This document shows, piece after piece, positions 4,882 through 18,025 of a DNA stretch of 64,000 nt. A model generated the notes under the pieces. The model saw only the letters and a list, made by a program, of their open reading frames with translations. It had not been told where the DNA came from and made no database searches. Location: positions 62,001 through 126,000 of the forward strand of contig NZ_VHLG01000010.1 in NCBI RefSeq assembly GCF_006516955.1, read 5' to 3'. Each line of letters opens with the position of its first letter. Within the stretch, counting starts at the first letter, position 1. This DNA is from Martelella alba. GTDB lineage: Bacteria; Pseudomonadota; Alphaproteobacteria; Rhizobiales; Rhizobiaceae. Both the position numbers and the translations under genes were made by a program.

Positions 4882-5418
4882 ATGACCATCAGAACCGGCC
4901 CAGGACAATCTTCGCGCACGTCTGTCGTGCAGGAAGCATCTACACCACCCGCAAGAGACGCCGCAAGGCGTGGCCGTCCCCTCGGCAAGGCCGGTACAGC
5001 CAAGCCCTCGGCCAACGAGGGCAGCATGGCAAATGTCTATGCCCAGGCCGCCGACGGGGCGAATTTGCCCGCGAGAGCTGATCGTCAGGCAGACAAAACA
5101 GCTCACTATCTCACCGGTGGCCAGAAGGCCTTTATCGCGCGCAACGGCGATGCGATGAAAAAACTGGGCCTTGCTTCGGAAAATGGCGAAGTCTCGCGAA
5201 CCATTGCCGCCTTTATCGACAAGCCGGGCGCCGAGCAGTCAATCCGTAACCTGACCGACCCGGCGAAGAAGGCAGCACTGACCACGCGCGGCTTTCTGGA
5301 TGGAGATGGCAAGGTGACCAATTCTGCCCGTTCCATCATGAAGACGCCGACATTGTTCGCCGTCCTGTACGGTGACAGGGCTCTCAAGGACCTGAAGCTT
5401 CTCGGTCTCGCCGAATAG
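4882..5418 (+). CDS. Hypothetical protein, not recognised
   Basis: This is a 178-residue protein of unknown function. The first ~75 residues are low-complexity, basic and rich in Ala/Gly/Pro/Arg (ARRGRPLGKAG) and look disordered. The last ~100 residues look like a small soluble helical domain (LTGGQKAFIARNGDAMKKLG ... LLGLAE). There is no signal peptide, membrane segment or cysteine. It stands alone between the sugar operon terminator and a convergent aminotransferase gene, with its own AT-rich upstream region. The ATG at 4882 has no strong Shine-Dalgarno, so the true start could be further in. I judge it a real gene because the frame stays open and its C-terminus looks protein-like. Confidence 0.6.
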   Translation: MTIRTGPGQSSRTSVVQEASTPPARDAARRGRPLGKAGTAKPSANEGSMANVYAQAADGANLPARADRQADKTAHYLTGGQKAFIARNGDAMKKLGLASENGEVSRTIAAFIDKPGAEQSIRNLTDPAKKAALTTRGFLDGDGKVTNSARSIMKTPTLFAVLYGDRALKDLKLLGLAE

Positions 5419-5439: not shown

Positions 5440-6615
5440 CTACAGTTTCACTGGCAGGCGGGTCGTAAGGGTTTTGATGACCTCGACATCCGCATTGGCG
5501 AAGGCTGCGCGAATATAACCTTCCTGCCTTGCGCCAAAGCAGCTGCCGGGCAAAACCAGAATTCCATGCTCACTGGCAAGATCGCGGGCGACCTCCATGG
5601 CATGCTTGCGATCGAAGGGGTGTCTGAGATAGGCAAAATAGGCACCGATCGAGATGATCTGCCAATGGCCCGCCGTTGCGATTGCCTGTTCGAAGGCCAG
5701 GCGTCGTCGATCGATTTCGTCACGATTCTCGTCCCGCCAGGTCTTCAGCCTTGTCATGGCGCCGACCAGGGCATGTTGGGCAGGGCGCGGGGCGCAGATC
5801 TGCAGATTGTCCATCACCTTGGCGATTTCGGTCATGATCCGGCCGCCTGCGGCGATCGCACCGACACGGTGGCCGGGGATGCAATAGGCCTTGGAAAAGC
5901 TGTAGATGTGGACAAAATGGTCGCGCCATTCCTGTCTGGTGAAAAGATCGTGCGGGGCATTGCTGCCGGCCGGGAGAAAATCGCGATAGGTCTCATCCAC
6001 GACCAGCATGATGCCAGCCTTGATGCAATGATCAAGCAAGGCATCGACAAGTGCCGGCGGATAGATACCGCCGGTCGGATTATTGGGGGTGACGATGAAA
6101 ATGGCCCGGGTTTTTGCATTCGTTGCAGCCTTGATCGCCGCCATGTCCGGAAGGAAACCGGCCGCGGGATCGCCATCGACGACGCGGACGGTGATGCCGA
6201 GCATGCGCAGCGTCATGTCATGGTTGAAATAATGCGGCCCGATCAGGATCACCTCATCGCCGGGCCGTGCAAGCGAAAGCGCCATGACGAAGAAGGCCTG
6301 ATTGCCACCGGCCGTGATTTGCAACTCACTGGCAGCAAGATTGCCGCCATAAAGTGCGTTGATATCGGCCGCGAGCGCATTGCGCAGCACGCCTTCCCCC
6401 TGAATGTCACCATAGCCTGCAAGCGCCGCATCGCCGGCCGTTTCGGAAAGGGCCGTCAGAAGATCCGCATGCGGCGCGTAGCCGGGCACCGCCTGGCAGA
6501 GATCGAGAACCGGGCCGTGCCGGCCGTCATAGGCGGCCAGCGCCTGACGAACCGCCGGGATGGGCGGAGCGTCCATGGTTTCGACAAGCGGGTTCAGCAA
6601 TGGTTTGGCAGACAT
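5440..6615 (-). CDS. Class I/II PLP-dependent aminotransferase
   Basis: This 391-residue fold-type I aminotransferase transfers an amino group between an amino acid and a 2-oxo acid. Visible landmarks are YGDIQGEGVLRNALA, the AGGNQAFF cofactor-phosphate region, NNPTGGIYPP, VVDETYRDF, and the Schiff-base lysine in YSFSKAYCIPGHRVG (Lys242). The ATG at 6615 is preferred over an upstream TTG at 6633. It follows the exported NTF2-like gene by 68 nt on the same strand and probably shares its transcript. The specific substrate is not deducible. Its position beside the creatininase/FolD island suggests it processes an amino compound released by that pathway. Confidence 0.88.
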   Translation of the reverse strand: MSAKPLLNPLVETMDAPPIPAVRQALAAYDGRHGPVLDLCQAVPGYAPHADLLTALSETAGDAALAGYGDIQGEGVLRNALAADINALYGGNLAASELQITAGGNQAFFVMALSLARPGDEVILIGPHYFNHDMTLRMLGITVRVVDGDPAAGFLPDMAAIKAATNAKTRAIFIVTPNNPTGGIYPPALVDALLDHCIKAGIMLVVDETYRDFLPAGSNAPHDLFTRQEWRDHFVHIYSFSKAYCIPGHRVGAIAAGGRIMTEIAKVMDNLQICAPRPAQHALVGAMTRLKTWRDENRDEIDRRRLAFEQAIATAGHWQIISIGAYFAYLRHPFDRKHAMEVARDLASEHGILVLPGSCFGARQEGYIRAAFANADVEVIKTLTTRLPVKL

Positions 6616-6683
6616 GGATTTTTCCGCGAACAAGAAGGAAGGCCTTTCGGGCTTACCCCTTCTTATGCGTCAGGAAAAGGGGG

Positions 6684-7307
6684 TTAGCCATCGCATTCGT
6701 TGACCGGCGCTGCCTTGACGATGGGAAAGCATGAGGCCCACTTCTCGGTCCGGGCCGGCCAGGGCGAAAGCGTTTCCGGGCTCTCTTCCAGCTGCAGCAC
6801 GCCAAGCGCCTGCAGATCCTTCACACGGCCGTCGAGATATTCCTTGATCACCGTGATCTTTCCATCGGTGACATGGGCCACCCAGACATCGTTGACCACC
6901 TGGCGATTGCCGCGCTGGAAGGTGCGGAACTGCAATTCGGCAGCGATCCGGCCCGTTTCGGTATCAACGAAGAAGGCATCGGCCGGCAGGTAGATCGATG
7001 TATCCTTGGCGGCGTCACAAAATGCCGCGAGATCGGCCAGCATCTTGTCCTTGCCGGTGTAGCTGGTGGTTGGATAGGAGAAAGCGACGTCCTCGGCGAC
7101 CGCATTTTCCATCAGCGCCTTGTCGCAGGCCGCCCAGGATGAGGCGAGATCAAGGACAAGATTCTCCATCTCGGCGCGGGCCGGGTCGGTAGAGACCGTG
7201 CCGGCAAAGGTTACCCCTGGCCGGATTTCTTCGGCACTGGCATTGGCGGCAACAAGGCCCATGGCGAAGCTGACCGCAACAAGCGCGCGGCGAAAATTGG
7301 TGTTCAT
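6684..7307 (-). CDS. Exported NTF2/SnoaL-like protein
   Basis: This 207-residue protein begins with a clear Sec signal peptide (RRALVAVSFAMGLVAANASA, cleaved near residue 25). The mature part resembles the NTF2-like/SnoaL fold: an early helix (DLASSWAACDKALMENAVAEDV), a Y-T-G-K-D-K-M turn, and beta strands ending in VWVAHVTDGKITVIKEYLDG. Members of this fold bind small ligands or act as isomerases and dehydratases, so a periplasmic ligand-binding or enzymatic role is possible. Two cysteines are near residues 60 and 92 and two are near the C-terminus. It sits directly downstream of a candidate IclR operator and is probably the first gene of a two-gene operon with the aminotransferase. Confidence 0.65.
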   Translation of the reverse strand: MNTNFRRALVAVSFAMGLVAANASAEEIRPGVTFAGTVSTDPARAEMENLVLDLASSWAACDKALMENAVAEDVAFSYPTTSYTGKDKMLADLAAFCDAAKDTSIYLPADAFFVDTETGRIAAELQFRTFQRGNRQVVNDVWVAHVTDGKITVIKEYLDGRVKDLQALGVLQLEESPETLSPWPARTEKWASCFPIVKAAPVNECDG

Positions 7308-7325
7308 GCTGTTATCCCCTGTCCT

Positions 7326-7350
7326 GTTCGTTTACCGAACTTTTGATCGA
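7326..7350. promoter_or_regulatory. Candidate IclR-family operator, site A
   Basis: The site contains a perfect 5-bp inverted repeat, GTTCG-N5-CGAAC (7326-7340), running into CGAACTTTTGATCGA (7336-7350). Fourteen of these 15 bases recur at 9086-9100 in front of the creatininase gene. The position, just upstream of the gene starting at 7307, suits control by the IclR regulator encoded at 8227-9006. Confidence 0.55.
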
Positions 7351-7375
7351 ATAAAGAAATTCAACCTGATTTTTA

Positions 7376-8227
7376 TCAGATTGACAAGTCTTTCCCTTCT
7401 GTCGTTCCCGCAAGGGCGGCATCGGCGATATTGGTGAAGAGATACGCCGTCGTCAGCGGCCCGACGCCATCAGGCACATGGGTGATGATTGCCGCCTTTC
7501 CCATGACCGCCTCCAGATCCACATCACCGACAAGACCCGCAGCCGTGCGGTTAATCGCCACGTCGATCAGGATTGCGCCCTCGGCGATATCATCCGCGCC
7601 TATGAGACCGGGTTTCCCGGCGGCGGACACGATGATATCCGCTGCCCTCGTATGGGCGGCAAGATCACGGGTCGCGGCATGGGCGATGGTAACAGTTGCC
7701 TCGCGGTCAAGCAGCATCTGGGTCAATGGGCGTCCGACAATGCGTGAGGCGCCGATGAGCACGACATGCTGTCCGGCAAGCGGGCCGGCCAGATGTTCCG
7801 CGATTTCGGCAACAGCCATTGCGGTTGCCGGAAAACGCCCAGAATAGCCCAGCGCCAGCCGGCCGGCATTTTCCGGATGCAATCCATCAATGTCACGATC
7901 AGCGCCGATCAGCGTTGCCACCTTGGCCGCAGATACACCGGTGGGCAGCGGATAAAGCGGTGCGATTGCATCGATTTCGGGTTCATCCGCCAATGCCTGC
8001 AGGCGGCGGTAACAGTCGTCCGGCGTGGCTGGCCAGGGCTCAAACCGCAATCTGACCCCGGCCTCGCCCGCAAGGTCTGCGAGCCGCTGACCATAGGCTT
8101 TCATGCCCGCATCGCACGCATCAAGCAGGATGACGGCCAGAGGGGCAAGATTGTGCGCGGCAAGTCTGGTCCGGGTGGAGGCAATCCGCTCGGCGGCAAG
8201 GCGGTCGGCACGAAAAATCCCGGTCAT
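7376..8227 (-). CDS. FolD paralogue lacking the cyclohydrolase lysine
   Basis: This 283-residue homologue of the bifunctional methylenetetrahydrofolate dehydrogenase/cyclohydrolase keeps the Rossmann part (VLIGASRIVGRPL), DIDGLHP and a VPDGVGPLT version of the C-terminal signature. Aligned by eye to E. coli FolD, the Y-x-x-x-K catalytic motif reads YGQRL, so Lys54 is replaced by Leu. VQLPLP reads PLYPLP, so Gln98 is lost; the Asp121 equivalent (RDIDG) is retained. In characterised FolD enzymes the lysine is needed for cyclohydrolase activity, so this protein may be dehydrogenase-only or act on a modified pterin. It overlaps the IclR gene by one base and is transcribed with it. Confidence 0.8.
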   Translation of the reverse strand: MTGIFRADRLAAERIASTRTRLAAHNLAPLAVILLDACDAGMKAYGQRLADLAGEAGVRLRFEPWPATPDDCYRRLQALADEPEIDAIAPLYPLPTGVSAAKVATLIGADRDIDGLHPENAGRLALGYSGRFPATAMAVAEIAEHLAGPLAGQHVVLIGASRIVGRPLTQMLLDREATVTIAHAATRDLAAHTRAADIIVSAAGKPGLIGADDIAEGAILIDVAINRTAAGLVGDVDLEAVMGKAAIITHVPDGVGPLTTAYLFTNIADAALAGTTEGKDLSI

Positions 8228-9006
8228 CAGAAGGTCGATCCGATATTGTCGGCGCAGCGTTTCAGATGCCCGACGATTTCCATGCGCGCCCGCGGATCAT
8301 ATTGTCCCGGTTCGTGGATAATCGAAACGGAGCCAACCACACCGGCTGATCCGCTTAAAACCGGCACGGCAAGCGAACAGACCCGGTCGACATATTCTCC
8401 TTGTGTCCAGGAATATCCAAGCTCGCGGACGTCATCAAGAATCATCTTCAGGCGGCTATTGTCGGTTTCCGTGCGTTGCGTGAAGGTCGAATGATCGCTG
8501 GCCTGAAGAACGGCATCACGCTCGTCGTCTGGTAGAAAAGCTAGGATGGCGCGGCCAACGGCCGTTGGCAGAAGCGGTGCGCGGCTGCCGACGGTAATGC
8601 GGTTGAGGGTGAATTTCGAAGGAACCACTGAATGGGCGACATAAACCGCCTCAAGGCCATCGCGCATGGCGAAGGACACCGCTTCGCCGATCGCTTCGGT
8701 GGCATTGCGCAGGATTGGCTGGACGATCTGGGCAATGCCGCGCCCCTCAATAAAGCCCTGGCTCAGTGTCAGAATATGCGGGGTCAGTTCATAACGGCCA
8801 CGATCGGCACTCAGATAGCCGAGCTGTTCCAGCGTGCGCACCAGGCGTCGGGCCACGGCCCGGTTCAGCTTCACCTTCTCGGCAATCTCGGAAATCGTGA
8901 TGGCGCGGTCGCGGCCATCAAAGGCGCGTATAACGGCAAGTCCCTTGGCAAAAGTCAGCGAAACTTCCTTGTCGTTCTCATCGAGTTGCACGCCGTGTTC
9001 CCTCAC
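8227..9006 (-). CDS. IclR-family transcriptional regulator
   Basis: This 259-residue regulator has an N-terminal winged helix-turn-helix (residues ~20-85, AITISEIAEKVKLNRAVARRLVRTL) and a C-terminal effector-binding GAF-like domain (residues ~90-255, with VGSRAPLLPTAVGRAILAF typical of IclR/PcaR/PobR). It is divergent from the creatininase-led operon and leads the FolD-like gene. Two near-identical CGAAC-containing sites at 7326-7350 and 9086-9100 are its likely operators, so it probably controls both arms of the island and possibly itself. The effector is unknown. Confidence 0.92.
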   Translation of the reverse strand: MREHGVQLDENDKEVSLTFAKGLAVIRAFDGRDRAITISEIAEKVKLNRAVARRLVRTLEQLGYLSADRGRYELTPHILTLSQGFIEGRGIAQIVQPILRNATEAIGEAVSFAMRDGLEAVYVAHSVVPSKFTLNRITVGSRAPLLPTAVGRAILAFLPDDERDAVLQASDHSTFTQRTETDNSRLKMILDDVRELGYSWTQGEYVDRVCSLAVPVLSGSAGVVGSVSIIHEPGQYDPRARMEIVGHLKRCADNIGSTF

Positions 9007-9053
9007 TTTTTTTGACCTGGTCGGAGAAAATGCAGGCTCAATTGTGAAGCCAC

Positions 9054-9100
9054 TTGACCGGTGTCAGATCTGGATTACTATTTTACGAACATTTGATCGA
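9054..9100 (+). promoter_or_regulatory. Promoter and candidate IclR operator (site B) for the creatininase operon
   Basis: A sigma70-like promoter is visible: TTGACC (9054-9059), 16-nt spacer, TACTAT (9076-9081). The candidate operator CGAACATTTGATCGA (9086-9100) lies just downstream of the -10 and matches site A at 14 of 15 bases; another CGAAC occurs at 9105-9109. Placement over the start of transcription would suit repression. Confidence 0.55.
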
Positions 9101-9113
9101 TAAGCGAACACAT

Positions 9114-9911
9114 ATGTCATTTTCTATCTGGTCTCAACTCCGAACCACCGATTTTTCACAGATCGACCGGGAAAAGTCGATTGCGCTTCTGCCGGTTGGC
9201 GCGACCGAGCAGCATGGTCCGCATCTGCCGCTCAATACCGATAGCCTGCTGGCCGAGGCGATGGCGCTGGGTGCTGCGGCCAAGGCCGCTCAGGCCGATG
9301 TCTACGTTTTGCCGACGATCACCTATGCCAAGTCGGATGAGCATCTTTCCTTTCCAGGCACGCTGACGCTGGATGCGGCAACGCTGGAGGCCACAATCAC
9401 CCAGATCGGACGCAGCGTCGCGCGCAGCGGATTTTCCAAGCTCGTTTTCCTCAATGCCCATGGCGGGAATGTCCCGGTGCTGCAGATTGTGGCGCGGCGC
9501 CTGCGCAATGAGGAAAAGCTCTTTTGCGTTACGGCGGGCTGGATGGGCATGGGCTTTCCGGAAGGCCTCGTCAGTGCAGAGGAGCGCGCAAGCGGTATCC
9601 ATGGTGGATTTGTCGAGACCGCCGCCATGCTGCATTTCCGTCCCGATCTTGTGGATATGGATCAGGCGCGCAATTTCCGGCCCGCTTCCGCCGATGTTGC
9701 TGCCCGGAATGACGTTCTCCGTCTCGTTGGCCCCGTCGGGGCGGGCTGGATCGCCGAGGATCTGACGCCTGATGGGGTTGCCGGCAACGCAGCTGCGGCA
9801 ACGGCTGAGGCGGGCCAGGCGCTCGCCGACCATGCAACGGCCCGTTTCGCCCGTCTTCTCGATGAGACTGCGGCCTACCATCCGCCGTTTTTGGCTCAGG
9901 GAGAGCGTTGA
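9114..9911 (+). CDS. Creatininase-family amidohydrolase
   Basis: This 265-residue metal-dependent hydrolase of the creatininase superfamily opens cyclic amides such as creatinine or related lactams. Characteristic segments are LLPVGATEQHGPHLPLNTD (metal ligands E, H, D), YAKSDEHLSFPGTLTL, VFLNAHGGN and SGIHGGFVETA (H and E). The ATG at 9114 is chosen because the protein then starts like its family (SIWSQLRTTDF); the longer frame from 9054 would run through the promoter. It is the first gene of a tight plus-strand operon and overlaps the next gene by one base. True creatininase activity is unproven, because family members act on diverse cyclic amides and formamidopyrimidines. Confidence 0.88.
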   Translation: MSFSIWSQLRTTDFSQIDREKSIALLPVGATEQHGPHLPLNTDSLLAEAMALGAAAKAAQADVYVLPTITYAKSDEHLSFPGTLTLDAATLEATITQIGRSVARSGFSKLVFLNAHGGNVPVLQIVARRLRNEEKLFCVTAGWMGMGFPEGLVSAEERASGIHGGFVETAAMLHFRPDLVDMDQARNFRPASADVAARNDVLRLVGPVGAGWIAEDLTPDGVAGNAAAATAEAGQALADHATARFARLLDETAAYHPPFLAQGER

Positions 9912-11200
9912 TGCCGCTGCCGGTCCTGTTTCGCAATATTGCCGTCGTAAGCGCACTGACGCAGGGCTTTGCCCTGCGCGCGGCTGGTTCTGACGGGCTG
10001 TCCCACACCGATATCGCTTTCGTCGATGGTGTCTTTGCCGATGCCCGGGGCCTTGGTGAGGTCGAGGGCATTGATGCATCCGGCATGCTGCTGCTGCCGG
10101 GCTTTGTCGATTGCCATGTCCATCTCGACAAGGCCTATACCGCGCGGCGCACCGGTGTCTCACGTGCGGGTCTTGACGAGGCCGTCCGCCTTGCCATGGG
10201 TGATTTCAAAAACCGTAGCGAGGCCGATCTCGATCTGCGCATGGAGCGGGCGCTCGCGCGCGCCTTTGCCAATGGTACTGTGGCGCTCAGAACACATCTC
10301 GATACGCCTGACATGCCAGCCCAAAGCCCGGCCTGGCGCGTGCTTGGCGCGAAACGTCAGGCCTGGGCGGACCGGATTGTCATTCAGCCTGTTGCGCTGA
10401 TGGCGCTTTCGCGCCTTGATGATGTTGATGATTTCGACCGCCGTGCCGGTGAAATTGCCGAGCGTGACGGTATTCTCGGTGCCTTTGTCAGCGCCGGCAG
10501 TGCAACGCCGGAACGGCTGGACCGGTTGTTTTCCATTGCCGAACGTCACCGTCTGGATATCGATCTCCATGTTGACGAGACGCTGGATGCCACTGCCAAC
10601 GGGCTTTCGCTTCTGGCCGACGCGCGTCTGAGAAGCGATTTCTCCGGCCGGGTGGTTGCAGGGCATTGCTGCGCGCTGGCGCACAAGAGCCCGGAGGTTC
10701 TGGCTGATACGATCACCCGTGTTGAAAGTGCAGGGATCGATGTTGTCAGCCTGCCGATGACCAACGGCTATCTTCAGGATGCAGGTCCCGATCGCACACC
10801 GCGCCTGCGCGGGATCGCCCCGGTGAAGGAACTTGCCCAGGCAGGGATTTCCGTCGCCTTTGCCTCCGATAATGTTCAGGATGCTTTCTTCCCTTTCGGT
10901 GATTTTGACATGTTGCAGGTTCTGCGGCAGGCGGTCATGCTGGGCCAGCTTGAGTGTGACGCCGGTCAATGGCTTCCCGCCGTCTTTGACAAGCCTGCCG
11001 CAATGATGGGATTGAAGAAGACCGGCCGCATTGGGCCGGGCGCACGCGCCGATGCCGTGATTTTCGATGCCGGTGATCTCATTGATCTCTTCTCGAAGCC
11101 TTGTCTTTTCCGCCGCGTCTATCGCGCGGGCAGCGAAATTGCAGACCGGCATTTTCCAGATCGTGCTCAACACTCCCCAGAAAGGCTGAAACGCGCATGA
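9911..11200 (+). CDS. Cytosine-deaminase-like (CodA-type) amidohydrolase
   Basis: This 429-residue metallo-dependent hydrolase has a TIM-barrel fold. The metal site motifs follow the CodA pattern: GFVDCHVHLDKAY, DLHVDETLD, GHCCAL and ASDNVQDAFFPFGDFDMLQ. The family hydrolyses C-N bonds of pyrimidines, isocytosines or small ring amides. ATG 9911 overlaps the creatininase stop (TGATG), and the 3' end overlaps the next gene by ATGA, so the three enzymes are translationally coupled. Together with the creatininase it suggests stepwise ring opening and deamination of an N-heterocycle. The substrate is not known. Confidence 0.88.
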   Translation: MPLPVLFRNIAVVSALTQGFALRAAGSDGLSHTDIAFVDGVFADARGLGEVEGIDASGMLLLPGFVDCHVHLDKAYTARRTGVSRAGLDEAVRLAMGDFKNRSEADLDLRMERALARAFANGTVALRTHLDTPDMPAQSPAWRVLGAKRQAWADRIVIQPVALMALSRLDDVDDFDRRAGEIAERDGILGAFVSAGSATPERLDRLFSIAERHRLDIDLHVDETLDATANGLSLLADARLRSDFSGRVVAGHCCALAHKSPEVLADTITRVESAGIDVVSLPMTNGYLQDAGPDRTPRLRGIAPVKELAQAGISVAFASDNVQDAFFPFGDFDMLQVLRQAVMLGQLECDAGQWLPAVFDKPAAMMGLKKTGRIGPGARADAVIFDAGDLIDLFSKPCLFRRVYRAGSEIADRHFPDRAQHSPERLKRA

Positions 11201-12588
11201 CAGCCGATATTGCCGCCGCCAAAGCGGCCCTTGCCCATCTCGATTGTGACGATCACCCGCAGACGGTGCGGCAGAAAAGCCGGGATTTCTACTGGTACAG
11301 CCCGATCCTGAAGCCGATGCTGGAAGACGTCGCCGCCGACTTTGTCGTTGCGCCACGCTCGGAGGCCGAGGTGATCGAGGTGCTTGCCACCTGCTATCGC
11401 TTTGACGTGCCGGTGACCGTGCGCGGGGGCGGAACCGGCAATTACGGTCAGGCCATGCCGCTTGCTGGCGGCTGCGTGCTGCATATGCGGCATATGGATC
11501 GCGTGATTGAAATCGCTGATGATCATCTCGTTTGTGAGGTGGGCGCCATCATCGCCGATATCGAACGGCAGGCGCGGCAAGAGGATCGCGAGATCCGGCT
11601 ATTCCCCTCCACTACGGCAACAGCGACCATTGGCGGCTTCATCGCCGGCGGCTCCAGCGGCGTCGGTGCCATTCGCTGGGGCGGGCTCAGAACGCCAGGC
11701 AATATCCGCCGCGTCCGGCTTGTGACGATGGAGGAGCGTCCGCGCATTGTTGAATTGCAGGGCGAGGATATCTTCAAGGCGGCGCATGCCTACGGCGTGA
11801 ACGGTGTGATGACCGAAATCGAAATCCCCGTAGATCCGGCCGGTGACTGGGTCGACGTTCTGATCGGCGCGGAAGATTTTGCCGCAGCAACGCGGCTGGC
11901 CTTTGCCATCGGCAAGGCGGAGACCATCAAGAAACGCATGGTCTCGACGTTTGAGCCTGAAATTCCGGCGCGCTATTTCACCCGCCATGCGCCTTTTCTC
12001 CATGAGGGCGAGGCCCTTGTCGCGGTTATGGCGGCGCGGGATGATCTTGATGCGCTGGCAATGCTTGCCGCTGACCATGGCGCAAGCCTGCGTTTTCGTG
12101 CGGATCGTGACGGCGCTGGTAAAAGACTGCCGCCAGCCTATGAGATCGCCTGGAACCACACGACGCTCAGGGCACTGAAGATCGATCCGGATACCACCAC
12201 CTATCTCCAGATGATGCTGCCATCCGACGATCTTTATGCCGCGATGGAGCGGGTAAAGGCCATCTTCGGCGATGAATTGCTGCTGCATAGTGAATTTACC
12301 CGCTTTTCCGGCCGGGTCTCGGCGGTGTTTCTGCCGCTGGTGCGCTATAGCGACAATGCCCGTCTTGAGGAGATCATCCTCATCCTTGAGCGCGATCTCG
12401 GCGTCACCGTCTTCAATCCGCATCGCCTGACGCTGGAGGAAGGCGGCATGAAGCGCACCGATCTCGGCCAGCTCGCCTTCAAACGCGAAACCGATCCCAA
12501 GGGACTGATGAACCCGGGAAAAATGATCGCCTGGACGAATCCCGACTGGACAGCCGAACCGGGCAAGGCCTTTCTTTTCACTCATTGA
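11197..12588 (+). CDS. FAD-binding oxidase (GlcD/FAD_binding_4 type)
   Basis: This 463-residue flavoprotein has a PCMH-type FAD domain in residues ~1-230: the P-R-S-E-A-E-V segment, VTVRGGGTGNYGQAMPLAGG, and GGFIAGGSSGVGAIRWGG. An FAD-linked oxidase C-terminal domain follows, ending in a region with LMNPGKMIAW, as in glycolate oxidase GlcD and D-lactate dehydrogenases. ATG 11197 overlaps the amidohydrolase stop by 4 bases, and an in-frame upstream start would lie inside that gene. It would oxidise a hydroxy acid or amine produced by the two hydrolases, with electrons passed on to quinone or oxygen. The substrate is inference. Confidence 0.9.
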   Translation: MTADIAAAKAALAHLDCDDHPQTVRQKSRDFYWYSPILKPMLEDVAADFVVAPRSEAEVIEVLATCYRFDVPVTVRGGGTGNYGQAMPLAGGCVLHMRHMDRVIEIADDHLVCEVGAIIADIERQARQEDREIRLFPSTTATATIGGFIAGGSSGVGAIRWGGLRTPGNIRRVRLVTMEERPRIVELQGEDIFKAAHAYGVNGVMTEIEIPVDPAGDWVDVLIGAEDFAAATRLAFAIGKAETIKKRMVSTFEPEIPARYFTRHAPFLHEGEALVAVMAARDDLDALAMLAADHGASLRFRADRDGAGKRLPPAYEIAWNHTTLRALKIDPDTTTYLQMMLPSDDLYAAMERVKAIFGDELLLHSEFTRFSGRVSAVFLPLVRYSDNARLEEIILILERDLGVTVFNPHRLTLEEGGMKRTDLGQLAFKRETDPKGLMNPGKMIAWTNPDWTAEPGKAFLFTH

Positions 12589-12635
12589 TTCTGACCTGGC
12601 CGAAAGCCGGTCAAATCCGATATTTCGAGACCATT

Positions 12636-13217
12636 ATGAGAGTTCACGTCATCTACGCCCATCCCCTTAATGACAGCCTTGCGGCAAAGCTGCATGAGAC
12701 CGTGGTCGAAAGTCTGATTGCCGCCGGTCATCAGGTCGACGATCTCGATCTTTACGCGGAGAAATTCGATCCGGTTCTGTCCGCTGACGACCGTCGTGAA
12801 TACCATGATATCCCTGAAAACCGGGCCCGGATCGATCCCTATGTCGCACGGCTTCAGGCCGCCGATGCGCTGGTTCTGTGCCATCCGGTTTGGAATTTCG
12901 GCTGGCCGGCCATCCTGAAGGGCTATTTCGATCGCGTCTTTCTGCCGGATGTTTCTTTCAAGCTCACCGATGGCAAGCTTGGGCCGGGGCTGACCAATAT
13001 CCGCAAGCTGGCAACGGTGACCACCTATGGATCGAAGCGCTGGCGGGCAGCCTTTCTCGGCGATGCCCCGCGCAAGAATGCGACCCGTTTCCTCCGTGTC
13101 GTCTGCGCGCCGGGGGTGAAGGTGGAATATCATGCGCTCTACGACATGAATAATGTCGGCGAACACAAAACCGCCGCTTATATCGAGAAGATCCGCCAGG
13201 CCATGCTTCGCTTCTGA
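12636..13217 (+). CDS. NAD(P)H-dependent flavin oxidoreductase (NQO1/KefF/MdaB fold)
   Basis: This 193-residue flavodoxin-like reductase has the FMN/FAD-phosphate region near the start (VIYAHPLNDSLAAKLHE) and the core motif LVLCHPVWNFGWPAILKGYFDRVF. Family members reduce quinones or supply reduced flavin. ATG 12636 is chosen because it places VHVIYAHP at the N-terminus as in relatives. It is 47 nt after the FAD oxidase and 28 nt before the ABC ATPase, consistent with one operon. It may act as the electron-transfer partner of the pathway. Confidence 0.88.
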   Translation: MRVHVIYAHPLNDSLAAKLHETVVESLIAAGHQVDDLDLYAEKFDPVLSADDRREYHDIPENRARIDPYVARLQAADALVLCHPVWNFGWPAILKGYFDRVFLPDVSFKLTDGKLGPGLTNIRKLATVTTYGSKRWRAAFLGDAPRKNATRFLRVVCAPGVKVEYHALYDMNNVGEHKTAAYIEKIRQAMLRF

Positions 13218-13245
13218 CCGGGGACAGCAATCAGAAAGGCGCGTC

Positions 13246-14049
13246 ATGACGACCACGACTGCAAAAGATCCTGCGGCTGACGATGCCGCGCGGCAGGATG
13301 ATCCGCCGGCAATTGCCTTCGAGCAGGTCTCGATGCGTTTTCCCGATGGCACGCTTGCGCTGCGCGATGTCAACCTGAAGGTCATGCCCGGCGAATTCAT
13401 TTCGCTGATCGGCCCATCGGGCTGCGGCAAGTCCACCCTCTTGAAGATTGCCAGTGGCCTTGTCTCCCATACGCAGGGCGATGTCTGGGTCGACCGGGAA
13501 AATCTCGGCTATACGTTTCAGGATGCAACGCTGATGCCCTGGCGTAGCGTCAGGGACAATGTCGAACTGCTGATGGAACTACGCGGTTATCCGCCAGCCA
13601 GGCGCGCGCGCATAGCCCGCGAAAAGATCGAACTGGTTGGCCTTTCCGGTTTTGAGGATCACTATCCGGCACGGCTTTCCGGCGGCATGAAAATGCGTGT
13701 CTCGCTCGCTCGTTCGCTGGCGCTCAATCCCAATGTCTTCATGTTTGACGAACCCTTCGGCGCGCTCGACGAGATTACCCGCGAGCGGCTGAACGAAGAG
13801 GTTCTGACCCTTTACGGGCGCGAAAAGCTGACCGGCATTTTCGTCACCCACTCCATTGCCGAAGCCGTCTACATGTCCGGAAAAGTGGTGTTGATGTCGC
13901 CGCGGCCGGGTCGGATTGTCGAGGTGTTTGACGTGCCCTTTGGCTATCCGCGTCGGCCGGAACTCCGTTATGATCCAGCCTTCTCGGCGCTTTGCGGGAC
14001 GCTTTCGGCGGCGTTGAGGCAGACGATCGAGGATAGCCAGGATGACTGA
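13246..14049 (+). CDS. ABC transporter ATP-binding protein, NitT/TauT (SsuB-like)
   Basis: This 267-residue ATPase belongs to the nitrate/sulfonate/taurine importer class. It has Walker [10 protein letters not shown], signature LSGGMKMR, Walker B VFMFDEP and H-loop VTHSI. The ATG at 13246 follows an AGAAAGG-type ribosome site; the longer frame would start inside the reductase gene. It overlaps the permease by 8 nt. This transporter class commonly imports nitrogen- or sulfur-containing organic molecules and thiamine precursors (family knowledge), which fits an N-heterocycle as substrate. Confidence 0.93.
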   Translation: MTTTTAKDPAADDAARQDDPPAIAFEQVSMRFPDGTLALRDVNLKVMPGEFISLIGPSGCGKSTLLKIASGLVSHTQGDVWVDRENLGYTFQDATLMPWRSVRDNVELLMELRGYPPARRARIAREKIELVGLSGFEDHYPARLSGGMKMRVSLARSLALNPNVFMFDEPFGALDEITRERLNEEVLTLYGREKLTGIFVTHSIAEAVYMSGKVVLMSPRPGRIVEVFDVPFGYPRRPELRYDPAFSALCGTLSAALRQTIEDSQDD

Positions 14050-14899
14050 GACAGACGCGCCAAAGATCACCCGCTATCCGGCGACGCCATTGCCTGGCGC
14101 ACCATCGCTTGGCAAACGCATGGCGCGCGAGCTTTTGCCGCCGGTGCTGATGGGCATTGTCATCGTCATTGCCTATCATGTGCTGCGCTCCACGCTTCCC
14201 GAACATCGCCTGTTCTTGATGCCGGATTCGCGCGGCATGTGGGAACAGGTGCTGACGAGACCCGACTTTCTCGCCGAGCTCCTTAACCGCTCGCTGAAGA
14301 CGATCTCGATTGCTTTGGCCGGACTTTTGATCTCGATCCCGCTCGGCATTGTTCTCGCCATCGTCATGTTCCGCTTTTATGTGATGGAAAAGGCGGTCTT
14401 TCCCTATCTCGTGGCGCTGCAGTCCATTCCCGTTATGGCGATCATTCCGCTGATCCAGAGCGCCATAGGGTTCGGCTTTTTCCCAAAGGTTTTGATCGTC
14501 GCGCTCTTCACCTTTTTCGCCATTCCGACAACATTGCTGCTCGGTCTGAAAAGTGTCGACCGCAACATCATCAACCTCTTCAAGCTGCAAAATGCCAGCT
14601 GGTGGGTCATGTTGACAAAGGCCGGACTGCCCTCCTCCGCACCAACACTGTTTGCGGGGCTGCGCATTTCTGGCTCGCTGGCCGTGATCGCCGCCATTGT
14701 CTCGGAACTCTTCTTTCTGTCGGGGCGTGGCGGGCTGGGTCAGCTCTTGATGAATGCCAAGATCGACTTCAAATACGAACAGATGTATGCCGCACTGATC
14801 ATGTCGTCATTGCTGTCGATCGCGGTCTATCTGATGTTCAATTGGCTCGGGAACCGGCTGTTTTCGAACTGGCACGAATCCGGCGGCAAACCGCAATAG
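14042..14899 (+). CDS. ABC transporter permease, NitT/TauT (SsuC-like)
   Basis: This 285-residue inner-membrane permease has about six transmembrane helices and the BPD_transp_1 domain. The cytoplasmic EAA-like loop lies around residues 180-200 (FKLQNASWWVMLTKAGLPSS), followed by LFAGLRISGSLAVIAAIVSELF as in SsuC/TauC. It overlaps the ATPase gene by 8 nt and precedes the binding-protein gene by 43 nt. Confidence 0.92.
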   Translation: MTETDAPKITRYPATPLPGAPSLGKRMARELLPPVLMGIVIVIAYHVLRSTLPEHRLFLMPDSRGMWEQVLTRPDFLAELLNRSLKTISIALAGLLISIPLGIVLAIVMFRFYVMEKAVFPYLVALQSIPVMAIIPLIQSAIGFGFFPKVLIVALFTFFAIPTTLLLGLKSVDRNIINLFKLQNASWWVMLTKAGLPSSAPTLFAGLRISGSLAVIAAIVSELFFLSGRGGLGQLLMNAKIDFKYEQMYAALIMSSLLSIAVYLMFNWLGNRLFSNWHESGGKPQ

Positions 14900-14942
14900 C
14901 GGGCCGGCAACACAAGGCCCAAAAGGGACAAAGGGGAATTCG

Positions 14943-16100
14943 ATGAAGATGTTTCACAAGGCCGCTCTGACCGGCGTTCTGACACTGGCAACGCTTTCCG
15001 CCGGCAACGCTGCCGCTGGTGAATTTGCCGAAAGCCACTACACGACGCCGCTCGGCGATGTCTGCCCCAATCCGCTGATCCTGCAGAAGGACTGGCTGGC
15101 CGAGGCCGAGCAGGGCATGATCTATCAGCTGATCGGATCCGGCGGCAAGATGGAGAGCGGTAAATATACCGGTCCGCTCGGCTCCACCGGCATCGACCTG
15201 GAAATCCTCGAAGGCGGCGGCGGCATTGGCCTGGGCGATGGCGAAACCGCCTATTCCGCGCTCTATATGGGTAATTCCCGCGCCGGTGTCGTGCCTGATA
15301 TCGCCTATCAGGAACTCGACAATTCCTTCATCTTCTCCAAGCGCTTTCCGGTTGTCGGTGTCTTCGCACCGCTTGATGTCGCCCCGACGGCGCTCCTGTG
15401 GGACAAGGCCACTTATCCGGACGGTTTCAAGTCCATCGATGATCTCAAGGTCTTTGCTGCATCCGACAAGGGCAAGATCTATGTCTCGACCATCAAACGC
15501 ACTTTCGGCCGCAATCTGGTTGACGAGGGCGTGCCGGAGGACGCCTTTATCGAAGGTTACCGCGGTGATCTGGAGAATTTCGTCACCCATAATGGCAGCT
15601 GGCTGAACCAGGGCTTCGTCACCAACGAAGTCTACAAGCTGGAAAACGGTCAGAACTGGTCCAAGCCGATCGATTATCTGCTGATCAACGATCTCGGCTA
15701 TCGCAATTATACCGGCATGCTCTCGGTCGCCAAAAACCGGCTTGACGAGCTGACGCCCTGCCTCACCAAGCTGGTGCCGCTGTTCCAGCAGGCTGCCGTC
15801 GACTATGCCAATGATCCGGCCGAGGTCAACGCGGTGATCTATGAGTTCAATGAGGGAGGCAATGCCGTTGGCTGGTGGAAGACCGACAAGGATCTGCTTG
15901 CCTATGCGTCGAAGGCCATGGTCGACAACCATCTGATCGGCAACGGACCGGATGATACGATCGGTGATTTCGACATGGATCGTGTTGCCGAGATGCTCGA
16001 AATCGTCCGCCCGACGCTGGATGAGCGTTCCGATATGGATGTCAAGCCGGAGGATGTGGTCACCAACCAGTTCATCGATCCGGCGATCGGCCTGAAATGA
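14943..16100 (+). CDS. ABC transporter substrate-binding protein (NMT1/SsuA-like), exported
   Basis: This 385-residue periplasmic binding protein has a Sec signal peptide (HKAALTGVLTLATLSAGNAAAG, cleavage near residue 27). The mature part has the two-lobed NMT1/SsuA layout, with a conserved GDGETAYSALYMGNSRAG strand-loop and a long C-terminal helical part. It is somewhat larger than typical SsuA proteins (~320). The ATG has an AAAGGGG site upstream and the stop overlaps folD by ATGA. The ligand cannot be read from the sequence. Context suggests a small N-containing ring compound imported for the catabolic enzymes upstream. Confidence 0.85.
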   Translation: MKMFHKAALTGVLTLATLSAGNAAAGEFAESHYTTPLGDVCPNPLILQKDWLAEAEQGMIYQLIGSGGKMESGKYTGPLGSTGIDLEILEGGGGIGLGDGETAYSALYMGNSRAGVVPDIAYQELDNSFIFSKRFPVVGVFAPLDVAPTALLWDKATYPDGFKSIDDLKVFAASDKGKIYVSTIKRTFGRNLVDEGVPEDAFIEGYRGDLENFVTHNGSWLNQGFVTNEVYKLENGQNWSKPIDYLLINDLGYRNYTGMLSVAKNRLDELTPCLTKLVPLFQQAAVDYANDPAEVNAVIYEFNEGGNAVGWWKTDKDLLAYASKAMVDNHLIGNGPDDTIGDFDMDRVAEMLEIVRPTLDERSDMDVKPEDVVTNQFIDPAIGLK

Positions 16101-16975
16101 GCGGACCGATGGCGTGTCTTCTAGACGGCGATGCCTTTGCCGCGTCTTTGCGTCAGGATATGGCGAAGCGCGTTCATGCGCTTTCGCTGGCTGGCCGGCC
16201 GCTGAAACTTGTAACCCTGCTTGTCGGTGATAATCCGGCAAGCAGTGCCTATATCGCCCGAAAACATGCCGATTGTGCCGAACTTGGCATTCTGTCGGAA
16301 GATCTGAGGCTTCCGGCGATCATTGATCAGCAGCGGCTGATGGCTGAAATCGCGCGGCTTAACGCCGATGACAGCGTCACCGGTTTTCTGGTGCAGCTGC
16401 CTTTGCCCACGCATCTGAATGAAGCGGAAGCCCTTGAAGCGGTCAGCCCGGCGAAAGATATTGACGGTCTGCACCCAATCAATCTGGGGCGGCTCCTTGC
16501 CGGCACACCCGGCCTGCTGCCCTGCACGCCCCATGCGATCTGGAAGCTTCTCACGCATCACGATATCCCGCTTGCCGGGCGCCATGTCACCATCATCGGC
16601 CGCGGTGCGCTCGTCGGCCGGCCGCTCGCCATGCTTTTGACCCTCAAGGGGATCGACGCAACGCTCACGCTGCTGAACAGTGCAACGCCGGATCTGGCCG
16701 ACTTCACCCGGTCAGCCGATGTCGTCATTTCGGCGGCAGGCGTCGCCGGCCTTGTGACCGCGTCCATGATCCGGCCCGGTGCCACAGTGGTCGGCGTTGG
16801 CATCAGCTATGGTGCGGATGGTGAAATGATTTCTGACATCGCCGATGATGTTGCCGCGACAGCGCAAGCGGTGACTCCACGCCATGGCTCGGTCGGAGCC
16901 GTAACGCGGGCGATGCTGCTTGAAAATCTGATTGCGATTGCCGAGGCCGGTCAGGCCTTGTCGAAGGGGTTGTAG
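16097..16975 (+). CDS. folD: FolD-like methylenetetrahydrofolate dehydrogenase/cyclohydrolase
   Basis: This 292-residue FolD homologue converts methylene-THF to formyl-THF in the cytoplasm. The cyclohydrolase/dehydrogenase residues are present: Tyr and Lys in SSAYIARKHADCAELGI, Gln in VQLPLPTH and Asp in KDIDGLHP. The NADP loop reads IIGRGALVGRPL. The usual PGGVGPMT signature is replaced by RHGSVGAVT, which is unusual. It is the last plus-strand gene of the catabolic operon, overlapping the binding-protein gene by 4 nt. Operon location suggests that the pathway releases a one-carbon unit onto tetrahydrofolate rather than a housekeeping role. Compare the degenerate paralogue at 7376-8227. Confidence 0.88.
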   Translation: MSGPMACLLDGDAFAASLRQDMAKRVHALSLAGRPLKLVTLLVGDNPASSAYIARKHADCAELGILSEDLRLPAIIDQQRLMAEIARLNADDSVTGFLVQLPLPTHLNEAEALEAVSPAKDIDGLHPINLGRLLAGTPGLLPCTPHAIWKLLTHHDIPLAGRHVTIIGRGALVGRPLAMLLTLKGIDATLTLLNSATPDLADFTRSADVVISAAGVAGLVTASMIRPGATVVGVGISYGADGEMISDIADDVAATAQAVTPRHGSVGAVTRAMLLENLIAIAEAGQALSKGL

Positions 16976-17190
16976 CCCGGTTTCTTGTAGAGCGTTTCCG
17001 CGCTTTCAAGGATATCCGGCCGGTAAACCTTTTCGGGCCATTCTTCAGGCGAGAACTCTTCAATCGCCACCGATACAGCCTTTTCAGAACAGCCTGCCCC
17101 TTCCATCACGGCTTTGGTCAGAAGATCGGCGATCTTCTGCTTCTGTTCATCGGTGCGGCCGGCAAAAAGCTTGAGCTGGACATGGGGCAT
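16951..17190 (-). CDS. 4-oxalocrotonate tautomerase-like protein
   Basis: This 79-residue tautomerase-superfamily protein has Pro immediately after the initiator Met (MPHVQLKLFAGRTDEQKQ), the hallmark catalytic N-terminal proline. That decides the start at 17190, where AGAGGAA lies 8 nt upstream. The central part (ALTK..MEGAGCSEKAVSVAIEEFSPEEW) matches the beta-alpha-beta layout. The family catalyses keto-enol tautomerisation or dehalogenation. It converges with and overlaps the 3' end of folD by 25 bp, so the two transcripts are antisense at their tails. It may act on an oxo intermediate of the neighbouring pathway. Confidence 0.85.
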   Translation of the reverse strand: MPHVQLKLFAGRTDEQKQKIADLLTKAVMEGAGCSEKAVSVAIEEFSPEEWPEKVYRPDILESAETLYKKPGYNPFDKA

Positions 17191-17281
17191 GAAACGTTCC
17201 TCTTTCGGTTTTCCGCGAGACAAGCGCCGAACGCGTGCCAAGTCAACCGAAAGCAGCCTCGCTCAGGTAAAATCATCCCTG

Positions 17282-18025
17282 TCAGCTTGTGACCAGCCGT
17301 AAGCCTGGCACGCGCGGCACAAGCGAGCGGTCCTGTTTCATGACGAAATCGAGATTGCGGCGGGCGATCTGCGCATGTTCGCGGCCGAGTGCCTCGGCGC
17401 GCGCACCTTCGCGCCGCTCCAGCGCTTCCAGCATGTCGTGGTGCTGGCGCTGGGCAACAAAGAGCGAGCGGCGAAAGGCCATCACATCGTCCTGGGCTTC
17501 GAGAAAGGCGCTCGGCGCGGCAAAGGGCATGCGGCGCGTGCGCTCGAGTTCGCGGCGCATGGTCTGCGATCCCGGCAGCAATGCCAGCAGACTGTGAAAG
17601 GCAGCGTTGAGTGTGACATAGCGGTTGTAATCGAGATCCTCGATATGGTCGGCGAATGTCTCGTCCATGGCGAGAACCAGTTCACGCATCTGCTCAAGGA
17701 GTTCGGGATCAACGCCACGTTCGGCCGCAAGCCGCAGCGCCGTGCCTTCGAGTACGCCGCGCAACTCGATTGCATCGCAGACATCGGCCAGCGAGAAACG
17801 GCGTACGGCATAGCCGCCTGCCGGAAGGCGTTCCAGCAGGCCCTCTTCTTCCAAACGGAAAAGAGCGGCTCTCAAGGGGGTACGCGACACGCCGAGTTCA
17901 ATCGACAGTGCGACCTCCGAAAGCCGCTCTCCGGGCGCGACTCCTCCTCCCAGAACAAGATTGCGCAGGCCGAGAAGCGCATTCAGCGCCTGTTGGTCCC
18001 GCACGCTCTTATGATCCGCGCCCAT
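17282..18025 (-). CDS. GntR-family regulator with FCD domain
   Basis: This 247-residue FadR/VanR-subfamily repressor has an N-terminal winged helix (residues ~10-75, GERLSEVALSIELGVSRTPLRAALFRL) and an all-helical FCD ligand-binding domain (residues ~85-225) with the D/H pattern that binds a metal and an organic acid (NAAFHSLL, QRQHHDMLEAL). It flanks the catabolic island and lies downstream of a TGTATACA palindrome in its own promoter region. It probably senses an acid intermediate and controls itself and adjacent genes. The target set is inference. Confidence 0.9.
   Translation of the reverse strand: MGADHKSVRDQQALNALLGLRNLVLGGGVAPGERLSEVALSIELGVSRTPLRAALFRLEEEGLLERLPAGGYAVRRFSLADVCDAIELRGVLEGTALRLAAERGVDPELLEQMRELVLAMDETFADHIEDLDYNRYVTLNAAFHSLLALLPGSQTMRRELERTRRMPFAAPSAFLEAQDDVMAFRRSLFVAQRQHHDMLEALERREGARAEALGREHAQIARRNLDFVMKQDRSLVPRVPGLRLVTS

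Follow-up and report, generated by a model that had tools for sequence, protein, structure and literature searches.

A putative operon for folate-type pteridine catabolism, with two divergent FolD paralogues, in Martelella alba

The environmental degradation of folic acid is described as not fully elucidated, its known steps reaching deamination and the release of glutamate, in the excerpts available of a study which reports that the pterin deaminases of Variovorax F1 and A. radiobacter Arad3529 deaminate folic acid, and that conserved endoribonuclease genes lie downstream of the pterin deaminase in V. paradoxus (PMC9513972). For aromatic amines, NpaA1 is a glutamylating enzyme whose partner is a Rieske oxygenase (excerpts of PMC11335346), and in R. 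leguminosarum UPM791 two proteins, the cytosine deaminase-like RLV_169 and the putative flavin adenine dinucleotide (FAD)-binding dehydrogenase RLV_170, are listed as pea-specific bacteroid proteins when compared with lentil (excerpts of PMC7950203). The PDB also holds a structure, 6v42, whose title reads ‘flavin oxygenase ... involved in folate catabolism’. Here we examine a gene cluster at positions 5440-18025 of a 64,000-nucleotide stretch of Martelella alba DNA (contig NZ_VHLG01000010.1, positions 62,001 to 126,000; ‘the window’), which encodes a close relative of 6v42 (FADox), a CodA-like amidohydrolase (CodA), a creatininase-family amidohydrolase (Crn), a flavodoxin-fold oxidoreductase (Flav), an ATP-binding cassette (ABC) importer with its substrate-binding protein (SBP), an IclR-family regulator and two paralogues of FolD (FolD1 and FolD2).

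From sequence comparison we propose, with a probability of roughly 0.6, that this cluster represents a variant form of an operon, widespread among proteobacteria, by which folate-type pteridines are taken up and catabolised; that figure covers the folate/pteridine operon, the part played in it by the FolDs being less sure. If this reading is right, a folate-type molecule is here a food rather than a helper, and the conserved, apparently co-regulated set of importer, deaminase, oxygenase and hydrolase supplies named gene candidates for the steps past deamination and glutamate release. Literature searches for the gene set, or for folate or pterin catabolism, found, on the evidence of titles and abstract openings, no description of this cluster, most subscription journals lying outside their coverage.

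The flavin oxygenase and its conserved neighbourhood

The kinship of FADox to 6v42 is the main support for this proposal: the two match at an expect value (E) of 8e-149, as against only 1e-12 for the next PDB relatives, and the predicted FADox model (predicted local distance difference test score, pLDDT, 79) superposes on 6v42 over its full length (template modelling score 0.91, 50% identity over 456 residues). In a FADox tree of 59 rows both fall within one 47-row group (support 100/100). The clade of the window FADox comprises 16 rows including two near-duplicates, leaving 15 distinct ‘sister’ clusters, the window's own among them; it is a single clade (100/100) whose stem is long, at 0.5 changes per column, and 6v42 sits on a different branch, beside clusters that carry neither FolD1 nor FolD2.

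The genes around FADox are kept together across a broad set of genomes. When 55 loci (the 15 sister clusters and 40 others) are searched up to 8 kb from FADox, CodA is found in 51 (15 sister and 36 other), Crn in 47 (14 and 33), the permease in 49 (15 and 34), Flav in 43 (12 and 31) and the ABC ATPase in 50 (15 and 35), although the ATPase query may also pick up unrelated ABC ATPases. Among the other loci the 11 most distant have a looser core, with CodA in seven, Crn in ten, the ATPase in seven and Flav in three. Because the window's own 5 Mb genome holds just five CodA-like and seven Crn-like genes at E 1e-8, chance does not explain their co-occurrence with FADox. FADox itself is matched at E 1e-90 in 32 of 398 genomes sampled evenly from the phylum; of the 19 loci from a scan of named genomes, four hold remote homologues and the other 15 (L004-L018) a close FADox at 51-92% identity, and in a plasmid collection 109 of the 136 records with FADox matches were from Rhizobium.

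The window's kind of cluster is rare within this wider family. In a class-wide sample of 385 genomes, only the window's own has its SBP; among 297 genomes of the family ten have it, one of them (G417) as a remote copy only. Among the loci examined, the marks limited to this sub-clade are the IclR gene, an enlarged THI5-type SBP and the two FolD paralogues; no IclR, no window-type SBP and no FolD2 was found within 8 kb of FADox in the 40 non-sister loci.

The first-pass annotation of this DNA had named the gene families, all of which are present (FolD2 scores below the Pfam catalytic cut-off, and SBP has no Pfam or NCBIfam model), and had linked them to N-heterocycle catabolism, which they fit. 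It had also proposed looking for the neighbourhood in other genomes, and the set is indeed kept far beyond this one. Its description of a compact gene set stands for the conserved core, but the span of 5440-18025 also takes in aminotransferase, tautomerase and GntR genes that fall outside that set. Its statement that the genes match no pathway is not supported, as FADox is close to a flavin oxygenase that its depositors assigned to folate catabolism.

Deamination, uptake and regulation

Both hydrolases retain their presumed active sites across the sister clusters and the inner non-sister clusters, in a comparison that excluded the 11 most remote loci. In CodA the motif HxH, H..E, H, D, which we take to comprise the metal and catalytic residues, is invariant in 45 of 45 aligned rows, and in every row the Asp is followed by Asn, where E. 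coli cytosine deaminase presumably has a second Asp. Five motif residues of Crn, presumably metal ligands, are likewise invariant (39/39 rows), and Crn scores above the PF02633 cut-off.

For the importer, SBP has no match in Pfam or NCBIfam (E 0.001) and none in the PDB by sequence, PF09084 included among the models without a direct match. Profile comparison shows it to be homologous to its counterparts in the other clusters at a probability of 98.7 (E 4.6e-16), with WLAEAEQG of the window opposite their WLAQAEHG, and thereby to relatives of PF09084, since the one such protein scanned is assigned to NMT1/THI5 by Pfam (PF09084). The profile of these other binding proteins picks up the formylaminopyrimidine-binding protein 3ix1 (E 3.5e-7) and, more strongly, 4nmy, a binding protein for which no ligand is named (E 2.7e-12). 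Because SBP is thus profile-related to NMT1/THI5 proteins and to proteins that match 3ix1, an aminopyrimidine-like ligand, the pterin ring included, is a reasonable expectation. A remote SBP relative (31-35% identity) also occurs with an importer and a LysR-like gene, and with no FADox match, at two loci (L047, G625:C28; L048, G417:C1), so the SBP family is not limited to FADox clusters; these loci are possibly a sister uptake system.

An IclR gene accompanies all 15 sister clusters, in 13 within 8 kb and in two (G625, G482) further out, and its product is nearest to the PcaR/PcaU/PobR model, though below its cut-off (190 versus 285 bits). Directly after the promoter-like TTGACC-N16-TACTAT and just 5′ of Crn lies an operator-like pattern, CGAACNNNNGNTCGATADNCG; TTGAC stands at the corresponding place in the eight sister loci inspected. 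If one mismatch is allowed, every one of the 15 sister clusters has the site 5′ of Crn, and the 810,136 bases of the 40 non-sister loci contain none. The pattern was derived from nine of the sister clusters, so that the other six are independent, though one of them (L015) is close to L006. The window's own genome has one exact match, that 5′ of Crn, and seven one-mismatch matches elsewhere, and a reversed control gave two matches. Of the five clusters with a Rieske oxygenase gene, four have a similar site before it, at one mismatch (L005, L041) or at two (L024, L045), L007 being the one without; with one or two mismatches, such sites also precede the SnoaL gene in three of six clusters including the window. 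As two two-mismatch sites were found in the window where 0.5 were expected, and seven of 100 shuffles reach two, the SnoaL-side copy is weak on its own; its placement just before a gene counts in its favour. We think that IclR probably controls the operon via the conserved Crn-promoter site.

Some sister clusters additionally carry a Rieske oxygenase, a ferredoxin reductase and a glutamine synthetase (GS)-like protein; of these three and IclR, the window cluster has IclR only. Among solved GS structures the GS-like protein matches NpaA1 with 434 bits, the next best reaching 196. The best PDB matches of the Rieske protein, which contains a LigXa_C domain, are Rieske-domain proteins including phthalate 4,5-dioxygenase, and a Rieske match at 30% identity is present in two of the 40 other loci. 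Taken with the kinship of IclR, these genes would suit p-aminobenzoate, the middle part of folate. A plant connection comes from plasmid pRlvA of R. leguminosarum UPM791 (L139, about 181-185 kb), which carries a CodA-FADox pair of the Rhizobium kind near 182 kb; judged by replicon, gene order and position, this is probably the RLV_169/RLV_170 pair, whose pea-specific appearance in bacteroids, as given in the excerpts cited above, hints at a plant-derived substrate.

The following scheme is our inference throughout, from the substrate and every reaction to what the two FolDs do and the attachment of IclR to its presumed site. SBP and the importer would take up folate or pterin; the CodA-like enzyme would strip the 2-amino group, converting a pterin to the lumazine type; FADox would oxygenate the ring, with Flav as a possible electron donor; and Crn would open an amide. 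Both FolDs would have been recruited to the incoming folate, where they may interconvert or strip its one-carbon (C1) substituent instead of serving housekeeping C1 metabolism. IclR would regulate the operon, probably through the site in the Crn promoter, and the Rieske oxygenase, ferredoxin reductase and aromatic-amine glutamylase of some sister clusters would handle the p-aminobenzoate half.

The FolD pair and competing readings

FolD1 and FolD2 form separate clades (support 100/99 and 100/100) in a tree of 51 distinct rows (13 FolD1, 11 FolD2 and 27 housekeeping sequences), the housekeeping clade being weaker at 98/74. The two occur together in 12 of the 15 sister clusters, FolD2 being cut by the contig end in the twelfth (G625), and neither occurs in the 40 non-sister loci, where the sole FolD match (L093) has housekeeping motifs. 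FolD1 keeps Tyr, Lys, Gln and Asp, which we take to be the catalytic residues of a working FolD, in 13 of 13 distinct rows; its loop, presumably at the folate site, reads PxHGSVGxxT in 12 of these (PRHGSVGAVT in the window) and PRRGSVGAVT in one (L004), where housekeeping FolDs have PVPGGVGPMT exactly in 24 of 27 rows and with one substitution in three. In FolD2 the Lys and Gln, presumably equivalent to human K56 and Q100 and important for the cyclohydrolase, are both gone in 11 of 11 rows, whereas housekeeping FolD retains both in 27 of 27, and its catalytic-domain Pfam score is 24 against a cut-off of 32.8 bits. A FolD match was found in each of the 26 relatives searched, and FolD1 in three; standard FolD residues are present in the 25 with a checked row, the 26th (G385) being a short fragment. 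Since the relatives possess a standard FolD, ordinary C1 metabolism does not need the extra pair. At E <1e-70, FolD2 is found in five of the 297 family genomes, all five with SBP, in a search that missed the G625 fragment. Two other candidates were set aside: FolD matches of about 40% outside the clusters (G535, G597, G625:C86) are not FolD2, as they keep the Lys, the Gln and the standard loop, and a ‘GAS’ motif near the FolD2 nucleotide site was dropped as a mark because it is also present in FolDs with standard residues.

We tentatively suggest that FolD1 and FolD2 are neofunctionalised catabolic FolDs with a C1-bearing folate as substrate, FolD2 performing a partial or wholly new reaction without Lys and Gln, and that natural C1-folates may be mineralised, both pterin and p-aminobenzoate halves, within one IclR regulon; we would not yet bet on this extension. 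Were the pair catabolic, it would represent a new use of a textbook enzyme family, and C1-bearing folates could be a growth substrate.

The rival that survives best, though we consider it unlikely, differs from our proposal on the FolDs alone: a pteridine would be degraded, and the FolDs would be passengers or suppliers of C1 units or NADPH that share the promoters. It draws on the three of 15 sister clusters that manage without FolDs, but these make up a single branch of the FADox tree (99/91), so the absence of Flav and FolDs in them is probably one loss; each FolD, moreover, forms one clade with shared unusual residues, and both are confined to this cluster type among the loci examined. Ranking after it, and in our view improbable, is the suggestion of the first-pass annotation that an N-methylated or formyl-yielding heterocycle is opened and the FolDs trap the released C1 unit on tetrahydrofolate. 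Such an arrangement has a precedent on plasmid pAO1, where a FolD-PurU pair lies beside a demethylating gamma-N-methylaminobutyrate oxidase, and it agrees with the retained Tyr, Lys, Gln and Asp of FolD1 and with the DadA/ThiO/SoxB-like oxidase and HyuAB hydantoinase of some sister clusters, a combination found in N-methylhydantoin routes. However, the FolDs are found in one sub-clade only, FolD2 has lost Lys and Gln in every row, the FolD1 loop is altered in all 13 distinct rows, which would be odd if standard tetrahydrofolate sufficed, no match to PurU, formate-tetrahydrofolate ligase or GcvT was found among the window open reading frames (ORFs) scanned, and the nearest solved relative of FADox is assigned to folate catabolism; C1 capture is thus the weaker reading. 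Least probable is a pyrimidine- or creatinine-type pathway with no pteridine (creatinine, N-methylhydantoin, methylcytosine or thiamine pyrimidine), which the creatininase and cytosine-deaminase families, the THI5-type binding proteins and the HyuAB and ureidoglycolate-lyase-like genes of some sister clusters would suit, but which leaves the FolD paralogues, the aromatic-amine module and 6v42 unexplained, with both equivalog cut-offs missed and HyuAB (within 8 kb of FADox in six of 15 sister clusters and further out in a seventh) lacking from the window cluster and found near FADox in none of the 40 non-sister loci. Homarine catabolism was considered as a further possibility.

Several observations weigh against the folate/pteridine operon itself. 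The folate link hangs on the title of a PDB entry, no paper naming 6v42 or 6v43 having been found, and 6v42 is nearer to the clusters without FolDs (66% identity to the Rhizobium copies) than to the window (50%); because of this, and because the window sub-clade stands on a long stem, its substrate may be related to, yet different from, that of 6v42. CodA falls below the cut-off of the cytosine deaminase equivalog PRK07583 (381.4 versus 403 bits), and Crn below those of creatininase TIGR04448 (117.8 versus 235 bits) and of MftE. The AlphaFold model of SBP is unusable (pLDDT 48.6). At two mismatches the operator pattern gives ten matches in seven of the 40 other loci, so single sites of this kind weigh little. 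Flav, FolD1 and FolD2 are absent together from three of the 15 sister clusters and so are not essential to the core, and neither carboxypeptidase G nor p-aminobenzoyl-glutamate hydrolase was matched among the window ORFs scanned.

Gene layout and comparison with described systems

The cluster consists of two divergent units (Table 1), Crn-CodA-FADox-Flav-ATPase-permease-SBP-FolD1 on the plus strand and IclR-FolD2-SnoaL-like-aminotransferase on the minus strand, with the tautomerase and then the GntR regulator at the far end of the stretch. Neighbouring frames share a few bases at the IclR/FolD2, CodA/FADox, ATPase/permease and SBP/FolD1 junctions. The tautomerase, GntR and aminotransferase genes were considered as part of the core and rejected, most sister clusters being without them.

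Table 1. Features of the Martelella alba cluster (positions within the window)
Feature	Position	Strand	Evidence or remark
Aminotransferase class I, accessory, poorly conserved	5440-6633	-	2/15 sister clusters incl. window
SnoaL-like protein, signal-like N-terminus	6684-7307	-	SnoaL_2; 6/15 sister clusters
Weaker copy of operator-like site, directly upstream of SnoaL gene	7329-7349	-	2 mismatches
FolD2, divergent FolD paralogue	7376-8227	-	Pfam catalytic domain below cut-off
IclR-family regulator	8227-9006	-	nearest PcaR/PcaU/PobR subfamily
Sigma-70-like promoter TTGACC-N16-TACTAT, read by eye	9054-9081	+	5′ of Crn
Operator-like site CGAACATTTGATCGATAAGCG, between promoter and Crn start	9086-9106	+	conserved in sister clusters
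Crn, creatininase-family amidohydrolase	9114-9911, ATG 9114	+	PF02633 E 2.3e-75
CodA-like amidohydrolase/deaminase, candidate pterin-type deaminase	~9911-11200	+	Amidohydro_3 + Amidohydro_1; best NCBIfam PRK07583
FADox, FAD/flavin mononucleotide-containing dehydrogenase or flavin oxygenase (FAD_binding_4)	11197-12588	+	PDB 6v42 match
Flav, flavodoxin-fold NAD(P)H oxidoreductase (Flavodoxin_2)	12636-13217	+	PF02525 E 7e-32
ABC importer ATPase	ORF 13153-14049, start probably near 13300	+	ABC_tran E 3e-28; taurine/nitrate-type models
ABC importer permease	14042-14899	+	BPD_transp_1 E 6e-21; SaoP/SsuC-type models
SBP, 385 residues, signal-like N-terminus, enlarged THI5/NMT1 relative	14943-16100	+	profile comparison
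FolD1, FolD paralogue	16097-16975	+	both Pfam domains above cut-off
4-oxalocrotonate-type tautomerase, accessory	ORF 16951-17241	-	PF01361 E 5.6e-12; 1/14 other sister loci
GntR/FCD regulator, probably outside core	17282-18025	-	4/15 sister clusters incl. window

Several side observations accompany this layout. A further cluster in the same genome (L079, G000:C44:185000-204999) is of the Rhizobium kind and lacks FolD; it comprises Crn, LysR, two binding proteins, ABC genes, CodA, FADox, Flav and RidA. Another genome has, no more than 5 kb apart, two FADox genes that belong to separate parts of the tree (L091, G189:C1:546000-565999), which suggests two related substrates. Plasmids of Klebsiella and Pantoea (hits H99 and H96) carry remote homologues of FADox, at 36-39% identity. 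On plasmid pC of R. etli CIAT 652 (L023) a set of biuret hydrolase, allophanate-hydrolase and urea amidolyase genes adjoins the FADox cluster and was treated as distinct from it. A DIOX_N-type 2-oxoglutarate/Fe(II) oxygenase recurs near L016, L017, L092 and L096, and more remotely in L006, L015 and L101, and may be an alternative oxygenation step. Between a GH3 gene and the aminotransferase of the window, an ORF of 178 amino acids (4882-5418) has no Pfam or NCBIfam match.

The cluster shares its core genes and conserved neighbourhood with the CodA-FADox-NitT-creatininase-RidA clusters of Rhizobium plasmids (R. johnstonii pRL12, R. etli pC), which differ in having LysR instead of IclR, a standard NMT1 binding protein and RidA (RidA-type proteins are often named endoribonuclease), and in lacking FolD. 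From housekeeping FolD, with which they share the two-domain family and, in FolD1, the retained Y, K, Q and D, the paralogues differ in the rewritten loop of FolD1 and the loss of K and Q from FolD2. Some sister clusters have GS-like and Rieske genes that resemble the NpaA1 glutamylase and Rieske dioxygenase module (excerpts of PMC11335346); the window is without them, and the sister Rieske protein resembles phthalate-type oxygenases. The pterin deaminases of Variovorax F1 and Arad3529 are hydrolases that deaminate folic acid, the type of reaction proposed for CodA. Finally, the flavin oxygenase of 6v42/6v43, although it groups nearer to clusters without FolD than to the window, shares with FADox 50% identity over the full length, the same fold and the same tree group.

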